50,481 nt of DNA from Bacteroidota bacterium (GCA_024277895.1 JAJRUH010000061.1:1-50481), one strand, 5' to 3'; counted from the stretch's first letter, positions 1 to 8,339 are shown. Notes: a model not told the origin generated them from the letters alone. Program-made: numbers and translations.

Positions 1-1325
1 ATTATTTTTGCCGCTTGTGTCGCTTGTTTAATTCTGTCGGCTAAACCTACACCGTCACGCATACTTCCCGCCAAATAAAGATTTTTATATTTACTTTCAA
101 TCGCTTTAATTGCCTGCAACCGTTTTTCGCTGTCGGCACCATATTGTGCAATTGCTCTTTTATGATAAAATAATTTAAACAAATCCGGTTTAAAATCTGC
201 CAAACCCAACAATTCCTGTAATTCTGTTTTTAAAATATATATTAAATCTTTTTCGGATTGTTTTGTTATTTGTTTGTTTTTAGTTCCGCCTACAAATACT
301 GTTATTAAAGCTCCGTTTTCCGGTGCCCTGTTTTTAAATAAAGTTGACATAAACAAAATTCCGAGTAAATTTTTATCTTCTTTCGATGGTATTAAACCTC
401 CGAAAGCATTTAAATTAATTCCTTTCCACTCATTAAATCCGATTGCCGCTTCAATAACTTCAGCATATTTAAGATTTATAATATCTTTTATATCATCTTT
501 GCTTAAAAAAGGAAATAAATGTAACAACTCTTCAGTATTTGAAGTATTAATTATATGTGTAAACTTTTCTTTTCCAATAACATAAAGGTCATTTTCTTTT
601 TCTACACGAATATTTGCATTCAATACAATTTTATCTTTTCCTACAAATTTTTCAAGAGCTTTTACGACGGAAGACAAACCTCCTTTTGCCGAAAAAATTT
701 CTTTTGTAATTTTTTTGTCATTTGCTGTTTTATGTTCTTTAGCTTTTTTAACGGCTCCGCCTATAAAACTCCCGTATTTTTGTTCAAGATTATATAATTT
801 AGGCAAAGCATATTTGGTAACCAAATAATCCGGATCTCCGGCATAAATACCGGAAATAAACGGATCTATTGCATAGTCTAAGAATGATTTTCCTAATCTC
901 CTGACAACTAAATCAGCAATTGTTTCAAAAGGATTTTTTCCCGGTTTTCGAAATGGTTCTCCTAAAATTCTGAATTTATCTTTCAAAGAAAATAAAGGTG
1001 TAGAAATTGCGGAAAATATTCCGGAAGGCAATGCGTGCCATTCATTATTTTTTAAGATAAGACGTTTTGCAGCCGATTTATCCGCAAAATCTATCTCAAA
1101 ATCCGTACTCAGGTTTTCAAAAAGTTCAACAGTTTCAATATTTGATAATGTGCCTGAATTAGGTCCCGTTTCATAAACAAATCCGTTTTTAGAAATTGTT
1201 TTTATCACACCGCCTATATGGTTTGTTTTTTCAAACAATTTAAAATCAACACCTTCTTTTTTAAGATAATAAGCTATTGTTAAGCCTGTTATTCCGCTGC
1301 CTATAATTGCTGTTTTTTTTTTCAT
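1..1325 (-). CDS. hemG: Protoporphyrinogen oxidase (HemG/HemY type, FAD), 3' end beyond window
   Basis: This open frame is missing from the ORF track because it has no stop inside the window. It reads from an ATG at 1325 to the left edge (about 441 codons). The N-terminus MKKKTAIIGSGITGLTIAYY is a Rossmann dinucleotide-binding motif (GxGxxG), followed by a conserved acidic residue (LFEKTNHIGG) that would bind the FAD ribose. Near the edge it reads AGSMRDGVGLADRI, the C-terminal FAD-contact segment of the family, so only a few residues should be missing. The enzyme oxidises protoporphyrinogen IX to protoporphyrin IX, the step before ferrochelatase. Its ATG lies one base after the hemN stop, so the two genes are co-transcribed and catalyse consecutive steps of haem synthesis. 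The family is clear; the exact oxidant is not. Confidence 0.9.
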   Translation of the reverse strand, partial: MKKKTAIIGSGITGLTIAYYLKKEGVDFKLFEKTNHIGGVIKTISKNGFVYETGPNSGTLSNIETVELFENLSTDFEIDFADKSAAKRLILKNNEWHALPSGIFSAISTPLFSLKDKFRILGEPFRKPGKNPFETIADLVVRRLGKSFLDYAIDPFISGIYAGDPDYLVTKYALPKLYNLEQKYGSFIGGAVKKAKEHKTANDKKITKEIFSAKGGLSSVVKALEKFVGKDKIVLNANIRVEKENDLYVIGKEKFTHIINTSNTEELLHLFPFLSKDDIKDIINLKYAEVIEAAIGFNEWKGINLNAFGGLIPSKEDKNLLGILFMSTLFKNRAPENGALITVFVGGTKNKQITKQSEKDLIYILKTELQELLGLADFKPDLFKLFYHKRAIAQYGADSEKRLQAIKAIESKYKNLYLAGSMRDGVGLADRIKQATQAAKI

Positions 1326-1326
1326 T

Positions 1327-2700
1327 TTATAACGATTTTGAAAATTGTTTTTCTGTTTGTTTTCTTAAAGGATCGAAAAGGTTTGCAATATTTCGTAAAA
1401 AGAACATCCCTTGATATGTAACCGAAATTTCTTTTTTATTAATTTTTATAAGACCTTCATTTTCAAAAACAGTCAATAAATCATAATCAATTTTAGTAAT
1501 CTCTTTAATTTCATCATAAGATACATTAAATTTTTGTTCAACATCTTTAAATGAAATAAAACGATTACTCATAATTTCGGTAATAATGTAACTGACAATT
1601 TTTTCATTTTTATTTAAAAAATAAACTTTCTCAAAAGGGAAAACTCCTTTGTCAATACTTTCCGAATATGTTTTTAAATTTTTGGTGTTTTGCAAATAAG
1701 CATTATCAAGTTGGCTGATTCCGCTTACACCGACGGCATATACCTGTCCCGTTGTTTTTTTCGTACAATATCCTTGAAAATTTCTGCTTAACTCCTTGTT
1801 TTGCAGTGCTATATATAATTCATCATCCGGTTTTGAAAAATGGTCTAAGCCAATTGATACATAACCGTTTTCAGTTAAAATATTAAATGCTTTTTCAAAT
1901 AAATGTATTTTTGTTTCGGCATCCGGCAAATGGTATTTTTCCAATATTTTTTGATGCGGTTTTACCCAAGGAACATGTGCGTAAGAAAATAAAGCTAATC
2001 GATCGGGTGCAATTGAGACAGCTTTTTTAATTGTTCCGGAAAAACGTTCAATTGTTTGCCCCGGTAAACCGTAAACAAAATCCAAATTTACCTTTATTTT
2101 GTTCTCATGTAAAAAAGCAACCATCTTTTCAACCGGTAAAATCGGTAACACCCTGTTCACATTCCTTAAAACATCTTTATCAAAATCTTGTATCCCTATG
2201 CTTAAACGGTTGAATTGCAAATTAACAAGTTCATTCATAAAATCATAAGTCAAATGTGCCGGATGGCATTCCATTGCAATTTCAGCATCATCAATAAAAT
2301 TAAAATTCTCATAAAAGATACTCATTATTTCCTGTATTTGTTTAATATCTAAATAATCAGGAGTTCCGCCTCCCCAATGAATCTGAGAAATTTTTCTTTG
2401 CGGAGACAATATCTTTTTATATAATAAAATTTCTTTTTTTAAAGTCTCAACATATTCACTTATAAGAGATTTATTATGAGTAATATGCGTATTGCAACCG
2501 CAATAATGACACAGTTGAGAACAAAAAGGAATATGTAAATAAAAAGAAATATTTTGAGTATTTTCTTCATTCGATTTTATTAACGCATCCGTTGCTTCGG
2601 AAGGTTTAAAATTATCAGAAAAGAAATTTGCCGGCGGATAACTTGTATACCGCGGAGTCGGGACATTATACTTTTTAAGTAATTCTTTATTTATGTTCAT
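1327..2700 (-). CDS. hemN: Oxygen-independent coproporphyrinogen III oxidase (radical SAM)
   Basis: 457 aa, the same length as E. coli HemN. The enzyme decarboxylates two propionates of coproporphyrinogen III to give protoporphyrinogen IX without oxygen, using a [4Fe-4S] cluster and S-adenosylmethionine. The cluster motif HIPFCSQLCHYCGCN places cysteines at about 60, 64 and 67 plus the HemN-specific Cys69. Further HemN signatures are GGGTPDYL, LSIGIQDF, YGLPGQT, PDRLALFSYAHVPW, GLDHFSKPDDEL and RNFQGY. These separate it from the related HemW chaperones. The loop normally read as E-(V/I)-(D/N)-P is ECHP here, with the glutamate kept. It starts 19 nt after the MFS gene and ends one base before hemG, inside a receptor-permease-hemN-hemG operon. 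It fits anaerobic or microaerobic growth. Confidence 0.95.
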   Translation of the reverse strand: MNINKELLKKYNVPTPRYTSYPPANFFSDNFKPSEATDALIKSNEENTQNISFYLHIPFCSQLCHYCGCNTHITHNKSLISEYVETLKKEILLYKKILSPQRKISQIHWGGGTPDYLDIKQIQEIMSIFYENFNFIDDAEIAMECHPAHLTYDFMNELVNLQFNRLSIGIQDFDKDVLRNVNRVLPILPVEKMVAFLHENKIKVNLDFVYGLPGQTIERFSGTIKKAVSIAPDRLALFSYAHVPWVKPHQKILEKYHLPDAETKIHLFEKAFNILTENGYVSIGLDHFSKPDDELYIALQNKELSRNFQGYCTKKTTGQVYAVGVSGISQLDNAYLQNTKNLKTYSESIDKGVFPFEKVYFLNKNEKIVSYIITEIMSNRFISFKDVEQKFNVSYDEIKEITKIDYDLLTVFENEGLIKINKKEISVTYQGMFFLRNIANLFDPLRKQTEKQFSKSL

Positions 2701-2719
2701 AAAATGTTTATTATACTAA

Positions 2720-3922
2720 TTATTCAATATCTGTTTTAAATTTATACAACCGAGGAAAAAAGATAAAAATAATGACGGAAAAGACTAATTCCGCAATAAA
2801 AAGTCCGTGATAACCAAAATTGTGTGCTGCTTTACCGCTTAAAACGGCTAATATTAAGCTCCCGAGATGAGTTAATACAATTTGAATAGTAAAATCTGTA
2901 CCTTCTCTGCCCTTTCTGACACAGTCCATAGCAATAGTATAAACAGAAACAGAATTAACACCGTAAACACTCCAAATTAAAAGGACACCCAAAAGTACAA
3001 AGCCACTTTCATATCCTATATAATTTAATGATACAAAGTATGTTGTAACAACAATCGTATAAGCTGTAAATAATTTCAAGGTTTTTTTTCTTCCGAGAAT
3101 TTTTATCAACTTACCTGCAATAAATGCTGATAAAAAACCCGCAGAAGCACCGTATATTCCCGAATAAATTCCGATTTGTTTAATATCATATCCCAAATCA
3201 ACGAGCCAAGGTTTTAACATTGTTAATATTCCGACCATACCGGAATAGAAGAAAAAAAGTAACAATATATGTTTATAAATACCTTTACGAGTAAAAAAAA
3301 GATATAAATCTTTTGCTCTGATTTTATTGCCTTTATCAGTTTCCTTTATCAGTTGTTTTTTATAAAACATTAAAGGGAAAAGTGCAATAAGTACAAAACC
3401 TGCAAGCCCGAACATTAAAATTTTCCATCCGTAAAGTGAATAAATAATAAGAAGAACTCCGCTGCCTATAACCGTTCCGAGGAAACTGCCTCCTGATTGC
3501 ATTGAATTTCCTATACTTCTTTCTTCTTTCTTTAAAATCAAAATTGCAAAAGCATCGGTAGCAATATCTTGCGTTGCCGAAGCCGTAAAAGCAAAAATAA
3601 GCAGGACTATAATTAACTTAAAATCAATTTGTAAGTTAAAAAAACCTATGGCAATAATTAAAACTGCATAAATCAATTCGGAAGAAAAAATCCATTTTTT
3701 AAAATCACTTAATTTACCGCTTGTACCGTCAACAAGAGGTGCCCACAAGAATTTTAAAATCCACGGAAGTTTAACCAACTGCAGTAAACCAATTGACGTA
3801 AGCGAATAATCTTGTTGCCTCATAATCACCGGCATAACCGTTGAAAAAAAAGTCATCGGTACCGATTGGGCAATGTACAGACTGAACAGAGCAAAAAATT
3901 TATATCCTTTATTTTCTTTCAT
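2720..3922 (-). CDS. MFS permease of the AmpG/RhtX-FptX type
   Basis: 400 aa inner-membrane protein with about 12 hydrophobic segments and no signal peptide. The start AQSVPMTFFSTVMPVIMRQQ, then GLLQLVKLPWILKFLWAPLVD and TQDIATDA, fit the AmpG-like branch of the major facilitator superfamily. That branch contains muropeptide permeases and the single-protein siderophore importers RhtX/FptX. It lies 59 nt downstream of a TonB-dependent receptor and 19 nt upstream of hemN. The context therefore favours inner-membrane import of whatever the receptor brings into the periplasm, such as a ferri-siderophore, haem or a porphyrin, rather than cell-wall recycling. The assignment to RhtX/FptX rather than AmpG is inferred from length and neighbours and is not certain. 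Confidence 0.75.
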   Translation of the reverse strand: MKENKGYKFFALFSLYIAQSVPMTFFSTVMPVIMRQQDYSLTSIGLLQLVKLPWILKFLWAPLVDGTSGKLSDFKKWIFSSELIYAVLIIAIGFFNLQIDFKLIIVLLIFAFTASATQDIATDAFAILILKKEERSIGNSMQSGGSFLGTVIGSGVLLIIYSLYGWKILMFGLAGFVLIALFPLMFYKKQLIKETDKGNKIRAKDLYLFFTRKGIYKHILLLFFFYSGMVGILTMLKPWLVDLGYDIKQIGIYSGIYGASAGFLSAFIAGKLIKILGRKKTLKLFTAYTIVVTTYFVSLNYIGYESGFVLLGVLLIWSVYGVNSVSVYTIAMDCVRKGREGTDFTIQIVLTHLGSLILAVLSGKAAHNFGYHGLFIAELVFSVIIFIFFPRLYKFKTDIE

Positions 3923-3981
3923 AAGAATAAAACACAGATTTGTTGCCGAAAGTTAAACCTCCGGCAACATATTTAAAGTTT

Positions 3982-6075
3982 TTAAAAGTAAATTTTCACA
4001 AATGCATTTATTTGTAAAGGATTTCCGAGTTGTACATATGAATTTCCTACGGCTTCAAAATAATATGAATTATAATCGGTATTCAATAAATTTTTTCCGA
4101 AAAAACCGAACTCAAAATGCTTACTTGTATTAACAGAAATATTTGCATTAAATAAGCCGTAAGCATCTTGATAAGCCGTATTTGCGTCATTCCAATAGAA
4201 TTTACCTACCTGTTTATAGTCTGCAACAAAAAATATTGATTTAAAAAACGAACCGCTTAAATCCATTTTATAGCTAAATCCTAAATTGCCGGTATATTCG
4301 GGAATATAAGGAATAATATTCCCGCTGTAATCTGTTTCTTCATCTTTAACATAATCTAAATAACGAACATCATTATACCCTGTATTTAGCCAAATTTGTA
4401 AATTGTGGACGGGCTTCGTATTCAATTCAAATTCAACTCCTTTACTTATTGAATGTCCGGCATTTTTCAACATTGCACCCCTCCCGCTCGGCACCGGCTG
4501 ATATACTTGTTGATCTTTCCAATCAATATAAAATACGGCAGTATTTAGCGATAATTTGTCATTCATCATCCTTGCCTTAACGCCTAATTCATAATTATAA
4601 CTGTATTCAGGGTTAAAACTTATGTCCTCATCTCTCTCAAAAGTTGAATTAAAACCACCGGCTTTATACCCTTTCGTAATACTGAAGTATGTATTGATAT
4701 CATTGTTCACTTCATACAATACACTTATTTTAGGTAAAATTTGATAATAAGTATTAAATGTATCAACATCTTGAATTTGAGTCAGATTATCGTTTAATTC
4801 TCTTTTATAATTATAAATCATATTATCTTTTTCGAAATCTCCTCTAATTCCTGCAGAAAATTTAAATTTATAAACCGGTATTGTTATTTGACCGTATGCC
4901 GCTGCACCCTGAACCGGTTGATCGTAGGTTTTATATAAGGTCATTGCACCGGGTAAATGATATGCTGCAACCGCATCCTCACCATAATTTACTTTAACAT
5001 CTTTATTTTTAAGTTGAGAAAAGCCAAATAAGCCGGCAACCCATTTAATTTTTGACACCGGTATTGATTTTACGGTAAATTCTTGAACGAAAGTATTGTG
5101 TTTACGAACTTGATTTACAAAAAACAAGTCTTTTGCCGTAAAATCTTGATCTATTCGTTGTGTGTCCGCCAAAAATTGAAAACTTGTCGCACTGTTTAAA
5201 ATAAATGCGGAAGTTTTATAATTAATATTTAAACCTGAAGACAATAAATCTCTGTGATAAGTACTTAATTGATTATAATTAATATCGAAAGCTTTTTGAG
5301 TTGTTGTATCATAAACGGCATAAGGATACCCGTTTTCAAGATTTTTTTCATAATTAACGGAAAAATTAATTTTAAAATTTGAACTCGGGGCATATTGAAC
5401 TTTCATTCTTCCCGAATACGTATTATATGAATCTGCGGAGGTGTTTAAAAAGTTATTTGTAAAAAAACCGTCGGAATGCGTGTAAGCACCGTCTAAAGCA
5501 AATATCAATTTCTTCCCGAGAGGTTGATTATAGTGTAAAACAGATTTAATACGATTGTAATTCCCGTAATCAGTTCTCAATGAAACATTCTCATTATCAG
5601 TCAGCTCAGAAGAATACATATATATTAAGCCGCCCATTGTATTTCTTCCGTACAAAGTCCCTTGAGGTCCTCGAAGAACTTCAATTTTACTGATATCGTA
5701 AAGTTCAAAATTAAACGATCCGAGTTCGAAATACGGAATATTATCGACATATAAGCCCACTGCCTGAGAATTAATTCTTGAACCGATTCCCCTGATATAA
5801 ATCGGACTGGTTAAGCGAGAACCGTGTTCGGGAATAAATAAATTCGGTATTCGAGAATTCATATCTTCAATGTTATTAATGTGCATCGTTTCAATAGTAT
5901 TCTTATTAAGAACCGATGCCGAAACAGGAGTATTGTGAACTAATTGGTTAACTTTTGTTGCTCTTACAATCACTTCGTCTATTTTTTGAGTTTCCGTTGT
6001 ATCATTTTGAGCTGTTAATTCTGGGAATATTGAAATTACAAAAATTGCTGAAAGGATAATATTTTTCATTTTCAT
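3982..6075 (-). CDS. TonB-dependent outer-membrane receptor, iron-complex/porphyrin type
   Basis: 697 aa with a signal peptide (residues 1-22, cleaved after LTAQ). The plug domain runs from about residue 30 to 150, with VHNTPVSASVLNK, IYIRGIG and the hallmark IEVLRGPQGTLYGRNTMGG. A 22-stranded barrel follows and ends in phenylalanine (KIYF). It lacks the N-terminal carboxypeptidase-like domain of SusC-type polysaccharide receptors, and its length fits siderophore, haem and vitamin receptors. It should carry a ligand across the outer membrane using TonB energy. It is first in the operon with an MFS permease, hemN and hemG, which points to iron, haem or a tetrapyrrole. Two candidate ATGs lie two codons apart; the outer one is used here. 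A perfect palindrome with a promoter-like -7 box lies about 75 nt upstream. Confidence 0.9.
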   Translation of the reverse strand: MKMKNIILSAIFVISIFPELTAQNDTTETQKIDEVIVRATKVNQLVHNTPVSASVLNKNTIETMHINNIEDMNSRIPNLFIPEHGSRLTSPIYIRGIGSRINSQAVGLYVDNIPYFELGSFNFELYDISKIEVLRGPQGTLYGRNTMGGLIYMYSSELTDNENVSLRTDYGNYNRIKSVLHYNQPLGKKLIFALDGAYTHSDGFFTNNFLNTSADSYNTYSGRMKVQYAPSSNFKINFSVNYEKNLENGYPYAVYDTTTQKAFDINYNQLSTYHRDLLSSGLNINYKTSAFILNSATSFQFLADTQRIDQDFTAKDLFFVNQVRKHNTFVQEFTVKSIPVSKIKWVAGLFGFSQLKNKDVKVNYGEDAVAAYHLPGAMTLYKTYDQPVQGAAAYGQITIPVYKFKFSAGIRGDFEKDNMIYNYKRELNDNLTQIQDVDTFNTYYQILPKISVLYEVNNDINTYFSITKGYKAGGFNSTFERDEDISFNPEYSYNYELGVKARMMNDKLSLNTAVFYIDWKDQQVYQPVPSGRGAMLKNAGHSISKGVEFELNTKPVHNLQIWLNTGYNDVRYLDYVKDEETDYSGNIIPYIPEYTGNLGFSYKMDLSGSFFKSIFFVADYKQVGKFYWNDANTAYQDAYGLFNANISVNTSKHFEFGFFGKNLLNTDYNSYYFEAVGNSYVQLGNPLQINAFVKIYF

Positions 6076-6176: not shown

Positions 6177-6603
6177 AAACTGACAGACAATATACTATAC
6201 CAAATAACAAGAAGAAAATAAGATATTCTTGTAAAATGCAGAACTACAAATATGAATTAAGCAGCGGGGGGAGCTCTCGGGACAGAAAAATTAATAATTC
6301 TTTCGGAATATCGGAATATGCTATGCCTAAAATAAACATTTATTTTACGAGCAAATATTAGAGAATTCTTGCTACAAACAATAGTTGCAGAATCTTGAGA
6401 TAGGTGCAAATTTTTTACATTTCCCTTATCGGATTTCAATTTTTTTGATGCTCCGGATTTATTTACCGGATTGTGAGCATATAAATCAATTTTATAAATT
6501 ACCTTCAAGTGCATCTCAATGAGATCACTAAGGGTAAAAATAATAAATACCGATAAGAGAAACTTATTCAAATAATTTTTAACACTATGTAAATAGCTAA
6601 AAT
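6177..6603. other. Intergenic stretch, no convincing gene
   Basis: It contains the overlapping frames 6170-6361 (+) and 6257-6607 (-). The minus frame starts at a TTG overlapping the DUF4491 stop, lacks family motifs and ends in an odd SVPRAPPAA tail encoded by a short GC-rich patch (near 6265-6283). I see no protein family, RNA gene or clear terminator. The GC-rich patch and the repeated CGGAATAT at about 6304-6319 may be remnants of a lost element. Confidence 0.4.
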
Positions 6604-6915
6604 TCAAACCTTTTTACTTTTTTTCTTAAACCAACCTTTTTTTACTCGTTCCTCCTGCTCAATTGTTTCGTGAATTCCCCAAAGAAATATAAATCCGAAA
6701 GCGGATATTGCAGCCGAAAATAAATTTTCGGGAATAAAGAGAGACAGAGAAACGGCAATTATTCCGATTGTAAAAAAAACAATCCAAAATTTCTTTGTAA
6801 AATGATATTCACCCCAAATACAAAGTCGGCGAGCAAAAATAATAACGATAAAAACAAACAGTCCGATAATAAAACCGGAAAGATTAATTTGTGTATTAAA
6901 GATTTCTGCATTCAT
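6604..6915 (-). CDS. DUF4491 family membrane protein, divergent second copy
   Basis: 103 aa with three hydrophobic segments, homologous along its length to the gene just upstream (compare EYHFTKKFWIVFF with EYHFGKKVWPVLF, and QEERVKKGWFKKK with QHERALKGQVKKN). This is the pattern of the short Bacteroidota DUF4491 proteins (three or four membrane spans, a basic C-terminal tail), whose function is unknown. The copy has lost the family's usual GLxHPxVxxxEY pattern, reading ARRLCIWGEY instead. Its ATG overlaps the stop of its paralogue in an ATGA arrangement, so the two are translationally coupled and probably act together. Confidence 0.75.
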   Translation of the reverse strand: MNAEIFNTQINLSGFIIGLFVFIVIIFARRLCIWGEYHFTKKFWIVFFTIGIIAVSLSLFIPENLFSAAISAFGFIFLWGIHETIEQEERVKKGWFKKKSKKV

Positions 6916-7202
6916 TCGTTATAAGTTCTGTCAGGATTTTTTTTAACTTGCCCTTTTAATGCCCTTTCGTGCTGTTTAAACATTTCAATTGAACTCCAAA
7001 ACATTGCAAACGCAAAAATTCCAAATAAAACAGAATAAGTTTCATTTGAAAAAAACGAACAGATTAAAAAAATAACCCCGGGAATAAAAAGAACCGGCCA
7101 AACTTTTTTTCCGAAGTGATATTCTAATTTTGCAACTAAAGGATGACAAAGCCCGATTATCAAGAAAGCTGCAAATCCGAGAAATAATCCTTCCCAATTC
7201 AT
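6912..7202 (-). CDS. DUF4491 family membrane protein
   Basis: 96 aa, a typical DUF4491 protein. The sequence MNWEGLFLGFAAFLIIGLCH continues into HPLVAKLEYHFGKKVW, followed by two more hydrophobic segments and the charged C-terminus KQHERALKGQVKKNPDR. It is an inner-membrane protein of unknown function, widespread in Bacteroidales. The downstream gene is a diverged paralogue starting within its stop codon (ATGA), so they form a tandem-duplicate pair. Nothing nearby suggests a substrate. Confidence 0.85.
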   Translation of the reverse strand: MNWEGLFLGFAAFLIIGLCHPLVAKLEYHFGKKVWPVLFIPGVIFLICSFFSNETYSVLFGIFAFAMFWSSIEMFKQHERALKGQVKKNPDRTYNE

Positions 7203-7379: not shown

Positions 7380-8339
7380 CTAAACTTTTAAATTTAATAT
7401 TGATTGTCTGTTTCGATTCACAGTTAATTGAGTAATATCCGGCCTCGAATAATGCCCCGAAGAATCAAAATTTTGTCGTTCTTCCGAAATTCGATTAAAA
7501 AATAATTCGGCAGTTATTAATTTTTCTTTTCCCGAAATAGGCGAAACAATCCAATTCCCGTCGGGTCCGGCAATGCAAGACCCGCCGTCAGCAAGAACTT
7601 TCGGGACGTTCTCAATAATTTTCGAATAATACGGAATATTTTTAGGGATATCATCCTTTCGTAATAATCCGGAAACAGACAAAACATAAGACCTTGATTC
7701 TTCGGCGATAAATCGCGTAATATTTATTGTATTTCTCTCGGCACCCGGCCAAACAGCTATATGTAAGTTTTCACCCATACCGTATAAAGCTGTTCTTGCC
7801 AAAGGCATCCAATTTTCCCAGCAATTTAAGCCTCCTACACAAAAATCTTTTAATTTATGAACTCGCAATCCGTTTCCGTCTCCCGGAGCCCAAACCAAAC
7901 GTTCTTCATAAGTAGGTTGCAATTTTCTGTGAACTGATTTTATCTTACCGTCAGAATGGATATAAACCAAAGAACAATACAAACTATGCCCGCCTCTGTC
8001 TGCAGGTCTTTCAACAATTCCCAGATAAACAGCAATTTTGAGTTCAAAAGCAAGTTGACAAATATCAGCCAAATCTCCCTTCTCAATTTGTACGGCATTA
8101 TTAAAATAGTAAGAAAAAATTTCTTTTTGCATACCGGAATTAAAAGTCGAAGCTGAAGTATAAGTTAACCAAAAAGGATAACCGGGTAATAAAGATTCTC
8201 CGAAAACAACTAAATTACAATTCTTTTTTCCTGCTTCAATAATATATGATTTTATTTTATCTTTTGTTTTTTCTTTATTAAGCCAAACCGGAGCAATTTG
8301 AGCTAAAGCAACTTTTATTTTGTTTAAATTTGCAGCCAT
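7380..8339 (-). CDS. Nitrilase (carbon-nitrogen hydrolase superfamily, branch 1)
   Basis: 319 aa cytoplasmic enzyme with the full catalytic set: Glu48 in FGESLLPGYP, Lys139 in HRKLQPTYEERLVWAPGDG, and Cys173 in GGLNCWENWMPLAR, with a further Glu in the PTYEERL segment. The LNCWENxMPL and PTYEER motifs identify true nitrilases, which hydrolyse organic nitriles to carboxylic acids and ammonia, rather than amidases or the NAD synthetase domain. The sequence does not reveal the substrate. It is transcribed alone, divergently from recQ, with a good TATATTTG promoter about 30 nt upstream, and ends before the DUF4491 pair. A role in nitrogen acquisition or detoxification is inference. Confidence 0.88.
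   Translation of the reverse strand: MAANLNKIKVALAQIAPVWLNKEKTKDKIKSYIIEAGKKNCNLVVFGESLLPGYPFWLTYTSASTFNSGMQKEIFSYYFNNAVQIEKGDLADICQLAFELKIAVYLGIVERPADRGGHSLYCSLVYIHSDGKIKSVHRKLQPTYEERLVWAPGDGNGLRVHKLKDFCVGGLNCWENWMPLARTALYGMGENLHIAVWPGAERNTINITRFIAEESRSYVLSVSGLLRKDDIPKNIPYYSKIIENVPKVLADGGSCIAGPDGNWIVSPISGKEKLITAELFFNRISEERQNFDSSGHYSRPDITQLTVNRNRQSILNLKV

Follow-up and report, generated by a model that had tools for sequence, protein, structure and literature searches.

A TonB-dependent receptor, permease, hemN and hemG unit with adjoining DUF4491 genes: a candidate route for porphyrin import and heme completion in Bacteroidota

The gene cluster

The window analysed here, by which we mean the whole stretch of 50,481 nucleotides from a Bacteroidota bacterium (GCA_024277895.1, JAJRUH010000061.1:1-50481), opens with four genes on one strand that encode a TonB-dependent receptor (TBDR), a permease of the major facilitator superfamily (MFS) and the late heme-synthesis enzymes HemN and HemG. 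The gaps between them (TBDR/MFS, MFS/hemN and hemN/hemG) are 59, 19 and 1 nt, an arrangement that an earlier sequence-only reading had described and that the coordinates bear out. That reading ended the unit at 1-6075, and while its four genes are as described, two genes of the DUF4491 family just upstream of the TBDR gene (6604-6915 and 6912-7202, overlapping by 4 nt) also belong to it. The window genome (G000) is assembled as 3.19 Mb in 183 contigs and is 95.7% complete; the window begins at base 1 of contig C38, where the hemG frame is still open, and the 3′ end of the gene is cut off. The features, all on the minus strand, are as follows.

3..1325 (-): hemG, HemY-type FAD protoporphyrinogen oxidase; 441 codons; TIGR00562 and PF01593
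1327..2700 (-): hemN, oxygen-independent coproporphyrinogen III oxidase (radical SAM); 457 amino acids; TIGR00538
2720..3922 (-): MFS permease of the AmpG/RhtX/FptX kind, proposed inner-membrane porphyrin(ogen) importer; 400 amino acids; PF07690
3982..6075 (-): TBDR, FyuA-like, proposed outer-membrane porphyrin(ogen) receptor; 697 amino acids; PF00593 and PF07715
6257..6607 (-): small open reading frame between DUF4491-B and the TBDR gene; tblastn matches only in loci L020, L022, L026 and L090
6604..6915 (-): DUF4491-B; 103 amino acids; PF14898 at 86 bits; the HP histidine of the A copy is missing
6912..7202 (-): DUF4491-A; 96 amino acids; PF14898 at 97 bits; HP and KQH retained

The two enzymes score well above their curated cut-offs, hemN with 494 bits against TIGR00538 (cut-off 325) and hemG with 265 bits against TIGR00562 (cut-off 98). 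The CX3CX2CXC cluster motif of HemN can be read in the translation as CSQLCHYCGC, and by its family matches hemG is an FAD-dependent HemY-type protoporphyrinogen oxidase and not the flavodoxin-type HemG of E. coli. Both DUF4491 proteins lie far above the Pfam gathering cut-off of 27 bits. The transport proteins fall below the cut-offs of their nearest families, the permease being closest to RhtX/FptX (TIGR02718, 169.5 bits, cut-off 356) and the receptor to the siderophore receptors (TIGR01783, 154 bits, cut-off 223.5), with a still lower score against the heme receptors (TIGR01785, 68 bits, cut-off 317). The nearest solved structure to the receptor is FyuA (4epa, 130 bits). Neither of the heme-receptor motifs FRAP and NPNL occurs in any of 99 receptors examined, and no riboswitch, cobalamin or other, was found upstream of the TBDR gene.

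Conservation of the gene order

A profile search with the permease yielded 75 loci, and the order TBDR-MFS-hemN-hemG is present in nearly all of them where the contig permits, most running on to hemH. An even sample of 247 genomes across the order contains 33 with a close permease, and hemN and/or hemG lie just downstream of it on the same strand in 32 of these, with a TBDR gene preceding it in nearly all; the conservation across Bacteroidota anticipated by the sequence-only reading is thus seen. A cassette of TBDR-MFS-hemN-hemG-DUF4491 is also carried on a conjugative plasmid of Bacteroides xylanisolvens (L206 5539-12231, NZ_CP045613.1), and this co-mobility together with the conserved order indicates that TBDR-MFS-hemN-hemG is one functional unit.

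The arrangement is not invariant. At three loci (L170, L177 and L180) hemG is present without an adjacent hemN, so the substrates may differ between loci, and the Prevotella-type loci have the form TBDR-MFS-hemD-like, with hemN and hemG of Hoylesella timonensis a few kb away.

Two further observations concern these loci. The plasmid cassette adjoins a tyrosine recombinase remnant, and the use of heme precursors is apparently mobile. In addition, an orphan HemD-like protein (PF02602) is encoded convergently to hemG in relatives of the window (L012 4701-5468, L026 11176-11964 and L090 7643-8422) and directly after the permease in the Prevotella-type loci L072, L073, L077 and L092, where it overlaps the end of the permease gene by 4 nt; these orphan genes sit in genomes that mostly lack hemB.

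DUF4491 in genomes lacking hemH

No match to hemB, hemE or hemH was found in the window genome, nor any PF00762 (HemH) protein. The sequence-only reading had expected hemA to hemE to be missing and hemH to be retained; hemB and hemE are indeed absent, but so is hemH, and DUF4491 is present instead. Among the 50 other permease-bearing genomes searched hemB is missing from 41. However, genomes of the order often lack hemB whether or not they have the permease (hemB is present in 3 of 33 permease-bearing and 43 of 214 permease-free genomes, p=0.15, which is not significant), so we have rejected an association between the two and treat the absence of hemB as context, not proof, for the salvage of an external precursor. 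Moreover, two genomes (G006 and G042) combine the import operon with a complete hemA-hemE set, so the operon is not limited to precursor auxotrophs and salvage can supplement synthesis. In G042 hemA-C-D-B-L-E lies in the middle of a contig and hemN-hemG elsewhere, hemH is absent and DUF4491 is present.

We scored 69 genomes, 52 of them with the permease, for hemH and DUF4491 genome-wide. DUF4491 occurs in none of the 30 with a true hemH and in 26 of the 39 without it; the permease-bearing genomes divide into 26 with hemH only, 23 with DUF4491 only, none with both and three with neither. The profile search of permease-centred loci likewise finds DUF4491 near the operon only where hemH is lacking. 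In two of the three genomes with neither gene (G022 and G031) the operon abuts a contig edge. Mapped on the permease tree, hemH and DUF4491 switch state about six times if some rows carry locus-level labels, and twice with genome-level labels alone.

Weak PF00762 matches in three Hoylesella-type genomes were rejected as HemH and scored hemH-negative, being CbiX proteins with a signal peptide encoded beside a SusC-like receptor. Counted in this way, 25 of the 50 other operon genomes that were searched lack a true hemH, and one of the 25, CP095414.1 (L076/G038), is a complete genome. These CbiX-like chelatases (L185 5068-5967, L186 5157-6056 and L187 5273-6172) may be periplasmic metal chelatases or dechelatases. 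The CobN/HmuS dechelatase family (PF02514) was also considered as an alternative chelatase and rejected, since it is missing from the window genome and from 46 of 48 operon-bearing genomes, which therefore do not use the Hmu dechelatase route.

Two members of the window's own genus can be compared at the site of hemH. In G011 the genes run hemA-C-D-B-L-E-N-J-hemH, with hemH 12 nt past hemJ (L015 1217-10497), and DUF4491 is absent. G006 has the same series as far as hemJ (L153 6865-15067), together with the DUF4491 pair and the import operon, and no hemH is found either in the 324 nt from hemJ to the contig end or elsewhere in the genome; a hemH hidden in the contig gap can thus be rejected for the expected site. 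The site in the window genome itself is uninformative, as the neighbour gene used to trace the hemA cluster by synteny is missing too. hemH is missing from the congeners other than G011, a case of patchy loss or gain inside one genus. Elsewhere DUF4491 occupies the slot of hemH outright, following hemG on the Bacteroides plasmid (NZ_CP045613.1) and, as a fused double DUF4491, in the series MFS-hemN-hemG-DUF4491 of G050. The pair also occurs with late heme genes and no importer, as DUF4491-DUF4491-hemN-hemG in G008 and directly before hemG in G013. The single-copy gene of Bacteroides, Prevotella and the complete genome F22 (G038) usually lies away from hem genes. DUF4491 is annotated in Bacteroides finegoldii, Parabacteroides distasonis, Prevotella nigrescens and the B. 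xylanisolvens plasmid.

An alignment of 47 DUF4491 domains covers about 92 positions, and residue invariance was read from an 18-row alignment, in which the invariant residues include E27, Y28, W69, E73, Q77 and R80. Both the HP motif and the tail KGWFPxNPKR are found in the single-copy proteins of Bacteroides and Prevotella. Where two copies stand in tandem, HP and KQH are retained in A, while B has lost the histidine and in most cases still has the tail, a divergence that would be expected if an obligate homodimer had turned into a heterodimer. The AlphaFold2 model of DUF4491-A (mean predicted local distance difference test score 91.4) consists of helices at 3-30, 36-51 and 54-82, with three predicted transmembrane helices. 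E27/Y28 are placed close to the end of the first helix and E73/Q77/R80 close to that of the third, so that both groups should share one membrane face, and the basic tail suggests that this face is cytoplasmic. A Foldseek search with DUF4491-A against the PDB gave no significant match; among the weak, non-significant ones are subunits of the mitochondrial pyruvate carrier and proteins of the MFS.

Proposed porphyrin import and heme completion, and the alternatives

In many gut and environmental Bacteroidota a replacement for HemH has long been missing. Bacteroides and Prevotella lack a HemH homologue and yet produce heme from protoporphyrin IX and iron through an unidentified ferrochelatase, and extracts of B. 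fragilis have a forward ferrochelatase activity that is undiminished after deletion of both CobN-like proteins (PMC6460266). Similarly, Bacteroides encodes no ferrochelatase homologue while protoporphyrin IX stimulates B. thetaiotaomicron (PMC4696147), and Prevotella grows on protoporphyrin IX without HemH (PMC7709123). Annotation of 17 Porphyromonas species found HemH in every one (PMC4700951). Coproporphyrin III supports the growth of P. gingivalis but is not bound by HusA (PMC6173696), and its receptor has therefore yet to be found. In literature searches, whose coverage left out most subscription journals and preprints, we found neither a mention of DUF4491 nor a later identification of the Bacteroides ferrochelatase.

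The gene order and the distribution of hemH and DUF4491 lead us to a model for the whole cluster. An exogenous porphyrin or porphyrinogen would cross the outer membrane through the TBDR and the inner membrane through the MFS permease; since hemN belongs to the unit, the imported substrate would most likely be coproporphyrinogen or coproporphyrin III. HemN acts on the reduced coproporphyrinogen, and therefore either the reduced form would be imported in anoxic habitats or the oxidised form would be reduced inside the cell. HemN would then convert coproporphyrinogen III to protoporphyrinogen IX and HemG would oxidise this to protoporphyrin IX, into which DUF4491 would insert iron in place of the absent HemH. 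DUF4491 would function as a dimer of three-helix membrane proteins, from a single gene in Bacteroides and Prevotella, as the A and B pair in the window and as a fusion in G050, and the candidate binding residues at one membrane face are the conserved E27, Y28, E73, Q77 and R80 together with His20 of the A copy.

We hold the parts of this model with different degrees of confidence. The import of an exogenous porphyrin(ogen), the predicted substrate, and its completion is the best reading of the operon and quite probably correct. It agrees in part with the precursor import and finishing put forward in the sequence-only reading, in favour of which stand the conserved order, the absence of hemB and hemE and the rarity of CobN/HmuS, although the two genomes with full hemA-hemE sets do not fit a strict dependence on import. 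DUF4491 probably takes over the role of HemH in some way, but from its distribution the narrower claim that it is itself the missing ferrochelatase, or an essential part of it, stands close to an even call. A heme-completion module with porphyrin(ogen) import and DUF4491 iron insertion is our best explanation of the whole, with a somewhat better than even chance of being right. The general form of the proposal, in which DUF4491 would be a new dimeric, membrane-embedded ferrochelatase, unrelated to HemH, of Bacteroides, Prevotella and many environmental Bacteroidota and the TBDR-MFS pair the missing coproporphyrin(ogen) importer, is tentative, and we put its chances a little short of even.

Several observations weigh against the model. 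DUF4491 has no sequence likeness or significant fold likeness to any chelatase, PF14898 being the only family matched and PF00762 unrelated. The exclusion pattern is clade-structured, and about six switches, although more than one, do not suffice for a pair test to reach significance. A genuine exception is G032, which has the operon with neither hemH nor DUF4491, and the control Bacteroides ihuae has a PF00762 match without DUF4491; this match is uninspected, and should it be a CbiX protein as in Hoylesella then that genome too has neither. The receptor and permease are related to siderophore systems. Finally, hemB, hemE and hemH share one cluster in G011, so their losses in the window genome are not three independent observations, and absence from a metagenome-assembled genome can reflect an assembly gap.

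An alternative that retains the salvage operon is that DUF4491 serves as a small, dimeric carrier or chaperone in the membrane (for heme, protoporphyrin IX or Fe2+) or a partner of HemG, with another, unrecognised enzyme inserting the iron. Pairing three-helix subunits are typical of small carriers, the weak fold matches include such proteins, and the single-copy gene is usually not beside hem genes; but a carrier or HemG partner leaves unexplained both why DUF4491 is absent from all 30 hemH genomes and why it occupies the slot of hemH, and we consider this unlikely, if the most credible of the alternatives. Less likely still is the alternative already raised in the sequence-only reading, that a siderophore uptake pair (a FyuA/FptA-like receptor and an RhtX/FptX-like permease) lies next to heme genes on account of a shared role in iron supply. 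The top family matches and the nearest solved receptor are of this kind, the heme-receptor motifs are lacking, and a homologous TBDR-MFS pair heads a catecholate siderophore synthesis cluster on an Acaryochloris plasmid (L208 5314-17197). Both proteins nevertheless score under the siderophore-family cut-offs, hemN or hemG adjoins the pair in all but one of the 33 sampled genomes, and a conjugative plasmid carries the pair, hemN, hemG and DUF4491 together as one cassette, all of which makes this the weaker interpretation.

Two further alternatives are highly improbable. The TBDR-MFS pair could take up heme itself, hemN and hemG being decaying remnants in an auxotroph that, lacking hemB, hemE and hemH, needs outside heme or a precursor; however, both genes are intact as far as they can be read, exceed their curated cut-offs and keep their order across the phylum, and heme-receptor motifs and, in most operon genomes, a CobN/HmuS dechelatase are missing. 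Nor is the absence of hemH at all likely to be an assembly artefact in an organism with an ordinary complete or late pathway, since, although a hemA-hemH cluster of about 9 kb as in G011 could fit one gap among 183 contigs and its neighbour gene is missing as well, hemH is also missing from half of the other operon genomes, one of them complete, from G006 where the DNA past hemJ is present, and in published work from Bacteroides and Prevotella (PMC6460266).

The proposed system can be set beside several known ones. Like HusA/HusB of P. gingivalis (PMC6173696) it would allow a macrocycle-deficient member of the Bacteroidota to import porphyrins and finish them, coproporphyrin III supporting growth in that organism; in Hus, however, coproporphyrin III is not bound by the secreted hemophore and the late genes extend to HemH, whereas the window encodes a FyuA-like receptor and an MFS permease together with hemN-hemG, and its genome lacks hemH. 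The Hmu operon shares TonB-dependent tetrapyrrole uptake in Bacteroidota, but its HmuS is a CobN-like protein of more than 1400 amino acids that strips iron from heme (PMC12583661), and belongs to the family rarely found in operon genomes. The FyuA/FptA and RhtX/FptX systems for yersiniabactin, pyochelin and rhizobactin have the same receptor and permease superfamilies in a two-component layout, but the window proteins score under those families' cut-offs and their neighbours are heme, not siderophore, genes. With HemH/PpfC (PF00762) DUF4491 would share the reaction, the insertion of Fe2+ into protoporphyrin IX, and it shares the slot after hemG (plasmid and G050), yet it is only about 100 amino acids long, with three transmembrane helices and no detectable homology. 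A precedent for a small membrane protein replacing an unrelated enzyme in the late heme pathway is the protoporphyrinogen oxidase HemJ, although it belongs to another family and another step, and DUF4491 occurs together with hemG.

Many gut communities are dominated by Bacteroides and Prevotella, which rely on external heme or porphyrin, and with a named candidate gene the question of their ferrochelatase becomes testable. The conserved TBDR-MFS pair is likewise a candidate route for sharing the porphyrins of neighbours, and in at least one case a conjugative plasmid carries it.

Two other genes of the window adjoin the cluster. Upstream of the DUF4491 pair is a nitrilase-family gene (7380-8339, minus strand; nearest TIGR04048 Nit6803, under the cut-off) with no evident link to it. 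The small open reading frame at 6257-6607 (-) has counterparts, with 28-47% identity, only in the nearest relatives and may encode an extra small membrane protein of the window's subclade.

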